Shown: positions 59,585-64,000 of the stretch, one piece after another
Layout of the letters: the number at the start of each line of letters is the position of its first letter
Position numbering within the stretch: position 1 is the stretch's first letter
From: Methylobacterium sp. Leaf99
Lineage (GTDB): Bacteria; Pseudomonadota; Alphaproteobacteria; Rhizobiales; Beijerinckiaceae
DNA: 64,000 nucleotides
Direction of reading: 5' to 3'
NCBI RefSeq assembly: GCF_001422375.1
Contig: NZ_LMMU01000009.1
Span: forward strand, 186,181-250,180
Notes under the pieces: generated by a model
Told to the model about the DNA's origin: nothing
Database searches by the model: none
Seen by the model: only the letters and a program-made list of their open reading frames with translations
Program-made: the position numbers and the translations under genes

Positions 59585-60490
59585 TCAGCCCCGGATCACG
59601 TCCACGATCTCGTAGGTGTCGGGATCGACGATGACGATGTCGTCGTCGACGAGCACGTAGCGGTAATCCTCGTATTCCGGTGCGATGCGGACGATGTCCG
59701 GCGGCAGGTCGTAGAGGGTGTAGCTGCGGGCGATGGCCGTGCCGACGCTGAGCGCGAAGGCGCCGGCGGCGAGACGCGGGATGCCGCGGCGGATCACGCT
59801 CTGGCGGAACTCCGTGCGCTGCGGCGCGCCGAGGCGGCCATAGGCGCCCCGGACCGCGCCCCGATCGCCGCGCCCGCCCCGATCACCCCGTGCGCCGCGA
59901 TCGCCCCTGTCGTCGCGATCCGCCCGTCCGTCCCGGCTTCCGCGCCCGTCGCGGTCGCCGCGATCGGCCTTGCCATCCCGGTCGCCCTTGTTGTCCCGGT
60001 CGGCCTTGCCATCCCGATCCGCTTTTCCGTCGCGGTCTGCCTTGCCGTCCCGATCCGGTTTGCCGTCCCGGTCGCCCCGGCCGGCCTTGCCGTCGCGGTC
60101 GGTCGGACCGTCCCGGTCCGCCCGGCCCTCGCCCTGCCCGGCGCGGCCCTCGGCGCCCGGACCGGCCCGGCCCTCGTCCGCGCCCCGGCCCGCACCGCCG
60201 GCCGGGCCGCCGCGCTCGGCGGCTCCGCCGGCCGCACCCGCGCCGCCCGCGGCCGGGCCGCCCCGTTCGGCGCCGGCCGCTCCGGCTCCGCCGCCAGCTG
60301 CGCCCGGGCCGGCCGCACCGCCGCGTCCGCCACCGCCGCCGGCACCACCGCCGCCGCCGGCCCCCATTCCGGCACCGCCGCCGCCAGCGCCACCCGCCGC
60401 GCCGCCTCCGGGGCCGCCTTGGCCGAAGGCCGCCGTCGCGCCGATGATCAGGGCCGCGGCCGCGACCGTGCTACGAAAGAGCTTGCTCAT
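59585..60490 (-). CDS. Glycine-rich secreted protein with C-terminal DUF1236
   Basis: A 301-residue exported protein. Signal peptide: FRSTVAAAALIIGATAAFG. Residues about 25-110 are glycine/alanine-rich, about 110-205 are Asp-Arg-Gly-rich with hexad repeats of the type DRDGKA, and the C-terminus (YTLYDLPPDIVRIAPEYEDY, then VLVDDDIVIVDPDTYEIVDV) is a DUF1236 domain. Family members are periplasmic or outer-membrane-associated proteins of unknown role. The DRDGKx repeats resemble calcium-binding DxDG loops but are probably just low complexity. It converges on hrcA. Confidence 0.78.
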   Translation of the reverse strand: MSKLFRSTVAAAALIIGATAAFGQGGPGGGAAGGAGGGGAGMGAGGGGGAGGGGGRGGAAGPGAAGGGAGAAGAERGGPAAGGAGAAGGAAERGGPAGGAGRGADEGRAGPGAEGRAGQGEGRADRDGPTDRDGKAGRGDRDGKPDRDGKADRDGKADRDGKADRDNKGDRDGKADRGDRDGRGSRDGRADRDDRGDRGARGDRGGRGDRGAVRGAYGRLGAPQRTEFRQSVIRRGIPRLAAGAFALSVGTAIARSYTLYDLPPDIVRIAPEYEDYRYVLVDDDIVIVDPDTYEIVDVIRG

Positions 60491-60815
60491 GGTGTTCCGT
60501 TTCCCGACCCGTTGATCGACGGCGCCGTCCGGCGCCGATGCGCAGCCGCAACGAGGACGCCCGAGAAACCGTTCCGAATTTCTTCGGTCCGACGGGTGCG
60601 AGACCTTCCGTTCGCGCTCGCCTGATCCAACGAAAGCTTGAGCGCATATCCGCCACGGCCGCGATGTGGGCGCTCATGGAGCGGCCGGTCCGCCGGAGCC
60701 CTTGTGAATTTTTCGCCGATGCTTAACGTCGCCGCAAAGCGTGCCCCGGGCGGGGCCATGCTCAAAAAATAATGAGCCAATCCAACAACATCCCAAACAA
60801 AACAGGGGGACGCGC
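60491..60815. other. Gene-free gap, 325 bp, AT-rich near the MFS gene
   Basis: Divergent control region for the DUF1236 gene (leftward) and the MFS gene (rightward). The last 60 bp are unusually AT-rich for this genome (CTCAAAAAATAATGAGCC, then an A-rich leader before AGGGGG). CTCA..TGAG makes a short inverted repeat around 60761-60777. No promoter is convincing enough to mark. Confidence 0.4.
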
Positions 60816-62174
60816 ATGTCGGACAGTGCTGGAGTCATGTCGCCGAGGCTCGACGAGGCGGCGGACAATCGCCGACGGATCAAGGCCATCGTCGCGTCGT
60901 CGTCGGGCAACCTCGTCGAGTGGTTCGACTTCTACTGCTACGCCTTCTTCGCCCTGTACTTCGCGCCGGTGTTCTTCCCCGAGGGCGACGACACGAGCCA
61001 GCTCCTGAAATCGGCGGCCGTCTTCGCGGTGGGCTTCTTCATGCGGCCCATCGGCGGCTGGCTGTTCGGGCGTCTCGCCGACCGGCTCGGCCGCAAGAAA
61101 TCGATGATGATCTCGGTGCTGATGATGTGCGCCGGCTCGCTCATGATCGCCGTGCTGCCGACCTATGCCAGCGTCGGCCACCTCGCCCCGGCCCTGCTGC
61201 TCCTCGCCCGGATGATCCAGGGCCTGTCGGTGGGCGGCGAGTACGGCACCAGCGCCACCTACATGAGCGAGATCGCCATCAAGGGCCGGCGCGGGTTCTT
61301 CGCCTCGTTCCAGTACGTCACCCTCATCGGCGGCCAGCTCCTCGCCTCCCTGGTGCTCATCGTCCTGCAGGGCTTCCTTACGGCCCAGCAGCTCACCGCC
61401 TGGGGCTGGCGCATCCCGTTCGTGATCGGGGCGCTCGCCGCCGTGGTCGCCCTGTACCTGCGCTCGTCGCTCACCGAGACCGCCACCCAGGCGGACATGA
61501 ACTCCAAGGAATCCGGCACCTTCGCGGCCCTGTTCAAGCACTGGCGCGCGTTCTGCGTGGTGCTGGCCTACACGGCCGGCGGCTCTTTGAGCTTCTACAC
61601 CTTCACCACCTACATGCCGAAGTACCTGTTCAACACGGCGCATATCGACAAGATCACCGCCTCGCAGATCTCCACGGCGGCGCTGCTGGTCTACATGATC
61701 ATCCAGCCGTTCTTCGGCTGGCTGTCGGACAAGATCGGCCGCAAGGCCAACATGCTGCTCTACAGCGGGCTGGGCACCCTCATGGTGGTCCCGCTCATGA
61801 CCACCATCGGCAGCACCACCAACCCGATCCTGTCCTTCGGCCTCATCATGATCGGCCTGACCGTGATCAGCTTCTACACGGGCATCTCCGGCATCGTGAA
61901 GGCGGAGCTGTTCCCGACCCAGGTGCGGGCGCTGGGCGTCGGCCTGTCCTACGCGGTTGCCAACTCCCTGTTCGGCGGCACCGCCGAGGCCGTGGCCCTC
62001 TACCTGAAGCAGATCGGCTCGGAGAGCACGTTCTTCTGGTACGTCACCGTGATGCTGGGCATCGCCTTCGTCGCCTCGCTGATCATGCCGAACCCCAAGC
62101 GCCACGGCTATCTCGACGGCGACGGCACCGTCGAGGAGGCGCTGGGGGCGAAGGCGCGCGTCGTCCACGCCTGA
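60816..62174 (+). CDS. MFS transporter, metabolite:H+ symporter (MHS) family
   Basis: A 452-residue inner-membrane permease with about 12 helices. [60 protein letters not shown] and [20 protein letters not shown] are hallmarks of the MHS family, whose members (KgtP, ProP, ShiA) import alpha-ketoglutarate, proline/betaine, citrate or shikimate. The closest pattern to my eye is the alpha-ketoglutarate permease group. ATG 60816 is 6 nt after AGGGGG. It converges on the ClC gene (16-bp gap). Confidence 0.9.
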
Positions 62175-62190: not shown

Positions 62191-63975
62191 TCAGGCCGTC
62201 TCGCCCAGCATCGCCCGACGCTGCCGGTCGAGTTCCTCGGCATAGCGCTTGAGGGTGTGGCTCTCCGTCAGGAGGCCCACCACCCGGCGGGTGTCGAGGC
62301 CGTCGACGACGGCCAGCGCCTCGCCCTCCGTGCGGTCGAAGGCGGCGGCCGCCGCCTTGGCGTTCATCCCCGGCGTCAGGACGTCGCCCGCGTGGCGCAG
62401 GAGGCCGGCGAGGCTGGGCGCGGCGCCCTCCGCGGCGCGGGCGGCGGCGTGGGCTTCGGGCACGCGGACGATGCCGGCGTAGCGCCCCGCCCCGTCCACC
62501 ACCACGATCCGCGACGGCGATCCGAGGGGATGGCCGGCGAGGAACGCGTCGAGGCCGGTGTCGAGGGGCACCGTGGCCACCTCGCGCCGCATCAGGGTCT
62601 CCACGGTGAGGGTCCGGATCCAGCCGACATCGTGGGCGCTGCGGATGCTCTCGCCGCGCAGGTGGAAGCGCCAGGTGGCGAAGGAGTAGCCGAAGGTCTT
62701 CCGCACGGTGAGCGAGGAGGCGATCACCGCGGCGAGGACGAGGCCGGTGATGGGAAAGCTTCCCGTGAGCTCCAGGGCCAGGAAGGTCATGGTCAGCGGT
62801 CCGCCGATGACGGAGACGGCGAGCGCACTCATGCCGATCACCGCGTAGGCGAGCGGGGTGGGCGCGAACGCGGTGAGCCCCGGCATCGACCCCGAAAAGA
62901 CCTCGCCGGCCAGCGCCCCGAGGAACAGGGAGGCGAAGAACAGCCCGCCGCGAAACCCCGAACCGATGGAGATGGCCGAGGCCGTCGCCTTGGCGGCGAA
63001 CAGCAGGGCGAGGGCCCCGAGTCCCATGCCGGTCCCGGGGTTGTCGAGATGGAGGTGCAGCGCCCCGTGGCCGCCCGAGAGCACCTGCGGCGAGGTCGCC
63101 AGCGCCAGGGCGCCGACGCACAGGCCGCCGAGGGCGGGGGCCACCGGGGCGGGCAGCCGGCTCGCGCGGATTCCGGCCTCCACCAGGGTGACGCCGCGCA
63201 TGATGAGGATGCCGAGGCCGGCGCAGATGAGGCCGAGGCCGAGCACCGGCAGGGTGTCGGCCCCGGTGATCGCCGTGGTCGTGAGGGCGTCGAGGCCCTC
63301 GACGGTGACGAGGGCGGGCTGGTTCATCAGGGCACGGGCGACGACGCTGCCGCACAGCGCCGCCACCACCACGGGCGTCAGGGTGGCGATGGAATACGTG
63401 CCGATGATGAGCTCGAAGGCGTAGAACGCCCCCGTGAGCGGCGCCCCGAAGGCGGCCGCGATGGCGGCGGCGGCCCCGCAGCCCACCAAGGTGCGCTGGT
63501 CGCTCCGCCGCAGCTCGAACGACAGTCCCAGGCGCGAGGCGAGGCCGGCGCAGAGCTGGGTGTAGCCGGCCTCGAGACCGACGGAGGCGCCGCACCCGTT
63601 CGAGATCACGTTCTGGAGGGCGACGAGTCCCGAGCCGCGCACGGACATCCGTCCCCCGTGCAGGGCGTTGGCCTCGATGGGGTCGATGACCGCCTGCGGG
63701 CGCCGTCCACGCCGCCGGGCGAGGGCGAGGACGCCCAGCAGCACGCCGCCCGCCGCCGGGGCGAGGAGCAGGGTGAGGGCCGGCAGGTCGTGGCTGGCGC
63801 TGAGGCGGGCGCCGTGTGGCAGGCCGTAGAGCCCTTCGCGCAGGGCCTGCGTCACCCAGGCCATGGCCGCCACCAGGACGCCCGCGCCGCAGCCGGCGAG
63901 GCCCGCCAGGGCGACGAGGCCGATCTCGCCGCCGCGCACCAGGGCGCGGGCCCGCGCCGGAGCCTGGGCGAACAC
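62191..63975 (-). CDS. ClC-type chloride channel/transporter with C-terminal CBS domains
   Basis: A protein of 594 residues or more with a ClC core of many hydrophobic segments (about residues 15-430) and two CBS domains (about 455-580: LMRREVATVPLDTGLDAFLA and GEALAVVDGLDTRRVVGLL). The gating glutamate survives as Glu135 in GCGASVGLEAGYTQ, but the usual filter motifs are altered: GREGP reads GLEAG, GSGIP is replaced around RRPQAVID, and GxFxP reads GGLFFAS. Transport selectivity is therefore uncertain. The GTG at 63975 is the first in-frame start seen; the reading frame stays open to the window edge, so the true N-terminus may lie outside. Confidence 0.85.
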   Translation of the reverse strand: MFAQAPARARALVRGGEIGLVALAGLAGCGAGVLVAAMAWVTQALREGLYGLPHGARLSASHDLPALTLLLAPAAGGVLLGVLALARRRGRRPQAVIDPIEANALHGGRMSVRGSGLVALQNVISNGCGASVGLEAGYTQLCAGLASRLGLSFELRRSDQRTLVGCGAAAAIAAAFGAPLTGAFYAFELIIGTYSIATLTPVVVAALCGSVVARALMNQPALVTVEGLDALTTTAITGADTLPVLGLGLICAGLGILIMRGVTLVEAGIRASRLPAPVAPALGGLCVGALALATSPQVLSGGHGALHLHLDNPGTGMGLGALALLFAAKATASAISIGSGFRGGLFFASLFLGALAGEVFSGSMPGLTAFAPTPLAYAVIGMSALAVSVIGGPLTMTFLALELTGSFPITGLVLAAVIASSLTVRKTFGYSFATWRFHLRGESIRSAHDVGWIRTLTVETLMRREVATVPLDTGLDAFLAGHPLGSPSRIVVVDGAGRYAGIVRVPEAHAAARAAEGAAPSLAGLLRHAGDVLTPGMNAKAAAAAFDRTEGEALAVVDGLDTRRVVGLLTESHTLKRYAEELDRQRRAMLGETA

Positions 63976-64000
63976 GCGGGTGAGGAGGGGGCGGGGCGCG

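Follow-up and report, generated by a model that had tools for sequence, protein, structure and literature searches.

A ClC protein of Methylobacterium sp. Leaf99 belongs to an alphaproteobacterial clade that keeps the gating glutamate and exchanges canonical selectivity-filter residues

It is still debated which side chains are required for a ClC protein to select anions and to couple them 2:1 to protons. In E. coli ClcA (CLC-ec1), a 2:1 Cl−/H+ exchanger of 473 residues that lacks CBS domains, the gating glutamate (Gluex, E148), Phe190 and Phe357 are described as central to coupling, with the aromatic slide being needed for Gluex movement in exchangers and its two phenylalanines also contributing to CLC-0 channel gating (PMC7274781). 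One study of ClcA followed the outer gate between helices N and F through the residue pairs 356-149, 357-148, and 358-147 (PMC4769167), and another report links weaker central anion binding to lower coupling (PMC12248016). CLC-F proteins carry the signatures GNNLI or GMGLI, GREGT or GREGV, and GEVTP (PMC11139923; PMC5100911). The initial annotation of the gene analysed here took GSGIP to be a motif of standard ClC proteins, a premise that is too broad because E. coli ClcB is without it.

We analysed a 64,000-nucleotide stretch of DNA from Methylobacterium sp. Leaf99 (the window), which lies on contig 9 of a genome of 4.65 Mb. The open reading frame at 62191-63975 (− strand) exists as annotated, and its assignment to a ClC protein was borne out by a Pfam Voltage_CLC score of 191 bits (cut-off 24.8), which places it in the ClC superfamily, and by the predicted fold described below. 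The frame runs beyond the window edge, and the likely start is an ATG just outside the window, 10 codons 5′ of the GTG chosen initially, which gives a protein of 604 residues beginning MNAPRPLLTRVF... (residue numbers refer to this protein, in which residue 135 of the initial annotation is E145). Longer upstream extensions are unlikely starts because they would cross a divergent tRNA-His gene outside the window. An adjoining MFS transporter gene (60741-62174, + strand) is convergent with the ClC gene, which is therefore probably transcribed alone. Between hrcA and the MFS gene lies a gene for a DUF1236 protein (59585-60490, − strand) with long Gly-rich and DGKADRDGK-type repeats. An artefact or frameshift was ruled out, as there was no internal stop among the matches listed and pN/pS was 0.17-0.35 against four relatives; the coding sequence appears to be under purifying selection. 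The closest named relative among the matches listed is a Methylobacterium sp. J-090 protein at 94%. Features are collected in the table.

Table. Coordinates of the ClC gene and of the features of its product in the window
Feature	Position	Strand	Basis
ClC coding sequence, 604 aa; first two codons (Met, Asn) just outside the window	62191..64000	-	Voltage_CLC 191 bits
ClC membrane domain, residues 17-454 (approximate)	62644..63957	-	AlphaFold2 model; alignment to 1ots
First CBS domain (approximate)	62434..62616	-	Pfam CBS 19.9 bits, below cut-off 24; model
Second CBS domain (approximate)	62209..62412	-	Model strands/helices only; 3org alignment to model residue 583
DPIEANAL, residues 108-115, at and after the GSGIP site	63661..63684	-	MAFFT, HHalign
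GLEAG, residues 143-147, replacing GREGP; E145 = ClcA Glu148 (gating), L144 = Arg147	63565..63579	-	
F186 = ClcA Phe190, aromatic slide	63448..63450	-	143/143 members
E198-L199 = ClcA Glu202-Glu203; inner proton Glu203 replaced by Leu	63409..63414	-	
GFRGGLFFAS, residues 350-359, helix N start; R352 = ClcA Pro353, F356 = Phe357, A358 = Pro359	62929..62958	-	
FGYSFATW, residues 438-445, helix R start; A443 = ClcA Tyr445	62671..62694	-	

The best NCBIfam matches of the protein were ClcB-like models, which it matched at 207.3 bits (PRK01862, cut-off 482) and 113.2 bits (PRK01610, cut-off 425); with both scores under the curated cut-offs, it is outside these ClcB equivalogs. An AlphaFold2 model built from 52 sequences had a mean pLDDT of 85, and its membrane part aligned with E. 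coli ClcA (1ots) at Z 42.5 over 403 residues with an rmsd of 2.9, tied with a cyanobacterial ClC (Z 42.9) and CLC-F (Z 42.6). The predicted structure, with Z about 42 to several ClC structures, is a ClC fold. The gating glutamate of helix F and the phenylalanine of helix N that mark the superfamily are E145 and F356, and both occur in the protein and in all 143 distinct members of its clade.

The initial claim of two CBS domains was upheld only in part, by the C-terminus of the model, which forms two strand/helix CBS-like units, and by a CBS match at E ≤ 0.01 in 34 of the 36 sequences of a clade alignment, the Leaf99 protein among them, but Pfam recognized the first domain only, and below its cut-off. 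Structural alignment to 3org spanned 498 residues (model residues 19-583). Between helix R and the first CBS domain, residues 448-461 (62623-62664, − strand; HLRGESIRSAHDVG) are strongly conserved in the clade; this stretch is also the one of lowest confidence in the model, with block means of 47 and 42.

None of five canonical features of a ClcA-type exchanger (GSGIP, GREGP, GGxFxP, Tyr445, and Glu203) is intact in the Leaf99 protein, which differs from ClcA at Ser107, Glu113, Lys131, Arg147, Pro150, Glu203, Pro353, Pro359, and Tyr445. The initial annotation had correctly reported GLEAG in place of GREGP with the gating glutamate kept, and a third motif GGLFFAS, which lies within GFRGGLFFAS. 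It had missed larger changes: ClcA position 353 carries an invariant Arg, and Arg147, Tyr445, Lys131, Glu113, and Glu203 are replaced. Canonical motifs hidden elsewhere in the protein were ruled out by MAFFT and HHalign, and HHalign of a clade profile against a canonical profile paired the same stretches for motifs 2 and 3; a structure-based alignment had been proposed as the check, but on this point the structural comparison contributes end points only. From these filter changes, we infer that anion selectivity or coupling may be altered.

Register was least certain at motif 1, where MAFFT and HHalign placed the protein differently against ClcA. We took this register by way of ClcB-like sequences (GHGVPEVM, EGVADVIEA, QGVADVIEAN, QAVIDPIEAN), and the HHalign match to a ClcB-like profile had no gap at motif 1. 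Because HHalign to the ClcA-type profile did not reach helix R, the Tyr445 site was assigned from MAFFT, the ClcB-like match, and the end point of the structural alignment: the 1ots match ends at model residue 452 and chain residue 456, and the same offset puts A443 (model residue 441) at Tyr445, the range being known from its end points.

The phylogenetic placement and the comparison with the CLC-F and ClcB-type branches that the initial annotation had proposed put the protein in one clade on the ClcB wing of the tree, apart from CLC-F. With five motif stretches removed, 35 sequences with a GLEA-type motif fell on one side of a branch with an ultrafast bootstrap value of 99 and an SH-aLRT value of 98, in a tree from which 14 of 93 sequences (long branches and near copies) had been left out. 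The neighbouring group consists of 21 ClcB-like sequences with GREGP (99/98); CLC-F (four sequences, 100/100) and ClcA-like sequences fall elsewhere. A FastTree of 171 sequences with motif columns removed likewise separated those with Arg353 from the rest at a single branch (97). The ClcB wing as a whole comprises 72 sequences, E. coli ClcB included, with SH-aLRT values of 92 in a quick tree and 93 with motif columns removed and again 14 of 93 sequences left out, both under 95, and E. coli ClcB forms a long branch in it. Of these 72, 39 belong to the clade (counting by its Arg353 one sequence with SSFRGG, L113) and 33 do not.

This wing separates older changes from those specific to the clade. 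The initial annotation was right that GSGIP is lost, but the loss is not specific: GSGIP is intact in 0 of 72 ClcB-wing sequences, E. coli ClcB among them, so its loss predates the clade; outside the clade, the GxGVP form survives in eight sequences and Ser at the Ser107 column in four. Likewise, none of the 33 other wing sequences has Glu at position 203 or 113, and Pro150 is also missing in E. coli ClcB (Ala) and in L204 (Ser). Specific to the clade within the wing are a hydrophobic residue at 147 (Arg in 29 and Gln in four of the others), Arg353, loss of Pro359 (present in 33 of 33 others), Ala, Ser, or Thr at 445 (Phe, Tyr, or Ile in the others), and a hydrophobic residue at 131, where Lys is kept in nine and lost in 24 of the 33. 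A neighbouring ClcB-like clade (L201, L202, L215, L216, and L218) has GQYGP or GRYGP, with Tyr for the gating glutamate; by its sequences, it is possibly a group of glutamate-free ClCs.

Conservation was counted over 143 distinct sequences defined by Arg352 (ClcA position 353), so that Arg352 itself is no finding within this set; they come from 187 of 222 proteins that were aligned (BLAST ≥160 bits to the Leaf99 protein), with weaker matches, four GQYGP sequences, and several ClcB-like sequences left out. The patterns DP[IV]EANAL and TWR[FL]HLRG[EQ] served to find 80 clade loci, so part of the invariance among them follows from the search itself; the same sites are invariant in the 63 members that were retrieved by homology of the whole protein. 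In ClcA numbering, Glu148 (E145), Phe190 (F186), Glu202 (E198), Phe357 (F356), and glycines 354 and 355 (G353 and G354) are kept in 143/143, as are D108, E111, and N113 of DPIEANAL, a stretch that was itself part of the patterns behind the 80 loci. The Ser107 column holds Arg or Lys in 118/143 and Ser in 7/143, with Gln in the Leaf99 protein, and Pro110 is Val or Ile in 134/143. Elsewhere, Glu113 is replaced by Ile or Val; Lys131 by Val, Leu, Ile, or Phe; Arg147 by Leu, Met, Phe, or Val; Pro150 by Gly, Ala, or Ser; Glu203 by Leu or Ile (one Thr, one Val); Ala358 by Phe (138/143); Pro359 by Ala, Ser, or Cys; and Tyr445 by Ala, Ser, or Thr. Arg147 is missing from every one of the 143 Arg353 sequences and present in all 21 ClcB-like sequences of this alignment that are without Arg353, which also keep Pro150 and Pro359 (21/21 each).

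The clade is widespread in alphaproteobacteria. In the order, there were at least 56 full-length matches (at least 426 bits, 44-100% identity) and three more at 37-39%, in at least 59 of 297 genomes, and all 50 of those 59 matches that were read, the Leaf99 protein included, had altered motifs. Recurrence in 49 other sequences from the order, together with the pN/pS of 0.17-0.35, argues that the altered motifs are not due to chance. Within the genus, a match at E ≤ 1e-80 was present in 98 of 99 genomes; in one of the 98, G595, the gene is divided into two adjoining pieces (G595:C1:3958468-3960263), and G598 is the genome without a match at 1e-80. Broken genes were seen as well in G253, where a second copy in two pieces (G253:C1:2044686-2046411) accompanies a whole one, and in G581, which has pieces only or a second, broken copy. 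A sample of the phylum gave at least 34 of 299 genomes among the matches listed, one of them outside the class; the motifs of these matches were read in the alignments described above. Scanning of genome contigs confirmed at least 450 relatives among 596 stretches; the 80 loci were taken from these and include Methylobacterium, Rhizobium, Agrobacterium, Brucella/Ochrobactrum, Bosea, Xanthobacter, Acetobacteraceae, and others. The source genome itself has two Voltage_CLC matches, the altered ClC and a canonical one with GSGIP, GREGP, GGLFAP, and Glu203. A Rhizobium rhizogenes genome (G303) holds eight. In the literature searched, which was mainly open-access, we found no published description or functional study of the clade.

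From the predicted fold, clade membership, and conserved residues, we infer for substrate and coupling a reading that we hold tentatively, at somewhat less than even confidence: the Leaf99 protein, which belongs to a separate clade of the ClcB wing, would be an inner-membrane anion transporter that is gated by Gluex, regulated by its CBS domains, and coupled at 2:1 Cl−/H+ only loosely or not at all. The anion path would lie, as in other ClCs, between the N-termini of helices D, F, N, and R, and E145 would block or open it on proton uptake, swinging on the aromatic slide F186/F356. A protonating, moving gate is expected because the equivalents of E148, Phe190, and Phe357 are invariant in the clade. 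The central anion site should be weak and coupling loose or absent, since Ser107, Tyr445, and the inner proton glutamates Glu113 and Glu203 are gone. The CBS tail would then tune either an exchanger that leaks or an anion pore that protons open. At the outer gate, the three ClcA pairs correspond here to Leu-Ala (356-149), Phe-Glu (357-148), and Phe-Leu (358-147), with Arg at 353, and Arg352 on the facing helix N may stand in for the positive charge of Arg147. The exchange of Arg147 for Arg353 is a single event on the tree. Four of the five GQYGP/GRYGP sequences (L201, L215, L216, and L218), none of them among the 21 ClcB-like sequences of the conservation count, have Gln147 without Arg353, so such compensation is not obligatory. 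Further points against this reading are that Tyr440, which precedes the Tyr445 site by three residues and is Tyr in 136/143 members, could serve as inner gate, that seven members have Ser at the Ser107 column, that Pro150 and Lys131 are lost elsewhere on the wing too, and that the motif 1 register against ClcA depends on the aligner.

We rank this loosely coupled, Gluex-gated transporter ahead of two other accounts of function. The first, which we consider possible but on balance unlikely, is an ordinary, strictly coupled Cl−/H+ exchanger for acid or chloride stress, in which the exchanged side chains make no difference to function: the anion sites would be formed by backbone amides of helices F and N, and water wires would extend to Gluex with no need of the inner glutamates. 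Retention of the anion-site glycines and Phe would fit it, as would a report that chloride selectivity may rest on backbone amides, which set selectivity in CLC channels (PMC9726985), and a report that proton coupling in some ClCs needs no titratable residue at Glu203 or Glu113 (PMC7253180); because other ClCs couple protons in this way, loss of these two glutamates alone does not make a channel. E. coli ClcB, also without GSGIP and Glu203, is reported to aid acid survival together with ClcA (PMC10394335). However, Tyr445, Arg147, and Pro359 have been lost together and the new state is nearly fixed, which seems to exceed drift.

That the filter was rebuilt and then nearly frozen could also point to a specialised transporter of another anion (nitrate, bicarbonate, a small organic anion, or similar), with a new site formed by the outer-gate Phe and Leu and by basic residues near the Ser107 site, an account that we judge clearly less probable than an ordinary exchanger. 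The Arg or Lys of most members at the Ser107 column would suit it, but the Leaf99 protein has Gln there and the motif 1 register is uncertain. Voltage_CLC searches of 12 genomes are similarly divided: in 10, a clade member stands beside a ClC of another type, but in Rhizobium johnstonii 3841 the clade member is the only match and Bosea lathyri has two clade ClCs and no other type, so that the clade may do a general chloride job there. Neighbours gave no clue to substrate, as no gene was conserved across lineages at the 80 loci and contexts varied by lineage. The many filter side chains lost might instead suggest a transport-dead ClC turned sensor or scaffold, but the gate Glu, the aromatic slide, and the helix-capping glycines are invariant, and we regard this as very improbable.

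The resemblance in fold to CLC-F raises the question of a fluoride exporter, a reading to which we give almost no credence. GNNLI, GREGT, and GEVTP are all missing from the Leaf99 protein, and the CLC-F sequences have Lys at 353 with Arg147 kept. The four in the tree come from genomes of relatives, where each lies a few hundred bases behind a fluoride riboswitch, and form their separate clade. No Rfam family, fluoride riboswitch included, reached its gathering score in the window, and in the source genome no fluoride riboswitch exceeded the cut-off among 150 of 708 candidates that were scored. A sub-threshold match was seen in that genome outside the window (G000:C9:144647-144728, + strand; 23.8 bits, cut-off 34).

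Two Rhizobium genomes carry a run of three elements: a fluoride riboswitch, a CLC-F gene (GNNLI, GREGT, GEVTP), and a gene for an OlsC-like hydroxylase (G301:C9:419470-422451, L159/L165; G303:C59:246334-249316, L222/L166). SycA of Rhizobium tropici was considered as a studied member of our clade and rejected by analogy with these two related genomes, in which the ClC beside the OlsC-like gene is CLC-F. The R. tropici sycA-olsC cluster is tied in print to symbiosis and acid tolerance, and one review states that CLC-F may carry the annotation sycA; by the same analogy, the cluster is probably a fluoride-exporter locus.

A broader proposal, which we advance as speculative and unlikely, is that this alphaproteobacterial clade rebuilt the anion path and kept only the gate: the pore Arg would have shifted from helix F to helix N, the central Ser and Tyr would be gone, the outer gate would be a Leu/Phe pair, and the product would be a non-chloride anion transporter or a proton-opened anion channel. 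If true, it would show which parts of the ClC filter are dispensable. The clade offers sequences that naturally combine the exchange of Arg147, Pro359, and Tyr445, now in a nearly fixed new state, with the older losses of GSGIP, Glu113, and Glu203 and an intact gate, and it bears on whether backbone amides and Gluex alone suffice. For these common alphaproteobacterial genes, annotation as a chloride channel is unproven.

Among described ClCs, CLC-ck2 is the Citreicella protein of Phillips et al. (2012). It is cited as an exchanger without titratable residues at Glu203 and E113 (PMC7253180), and its dimer is given as about 89 kDa (PMC8633789), or about 44.5 kDa per subunit, so that, compared by description only, it is probably without a CBS tail. 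CLC-F shares with the Leaf99 protein the fold and the gating Glu on helix F but differs in signature motifs, in its separate clade, and in its riboswitch, and some genomes with a clade member carry CLC-F too. ClcA shares the fold, E148, F190, F357, E202, and glycines 354 and 355, but nine sites differ. E. coli ClcB belongs to the same wing, is likewise without GSGIP and Glu203, and keeps Gluex; in contrast to the Leaf99 protein, however, it retains Arg147 (GREGA), Pro359 (GGVFTP), and Tyr445, is without Arg353, and, at 418 residues, is too short for the CBS-like tail that the Leaf99 protein has.
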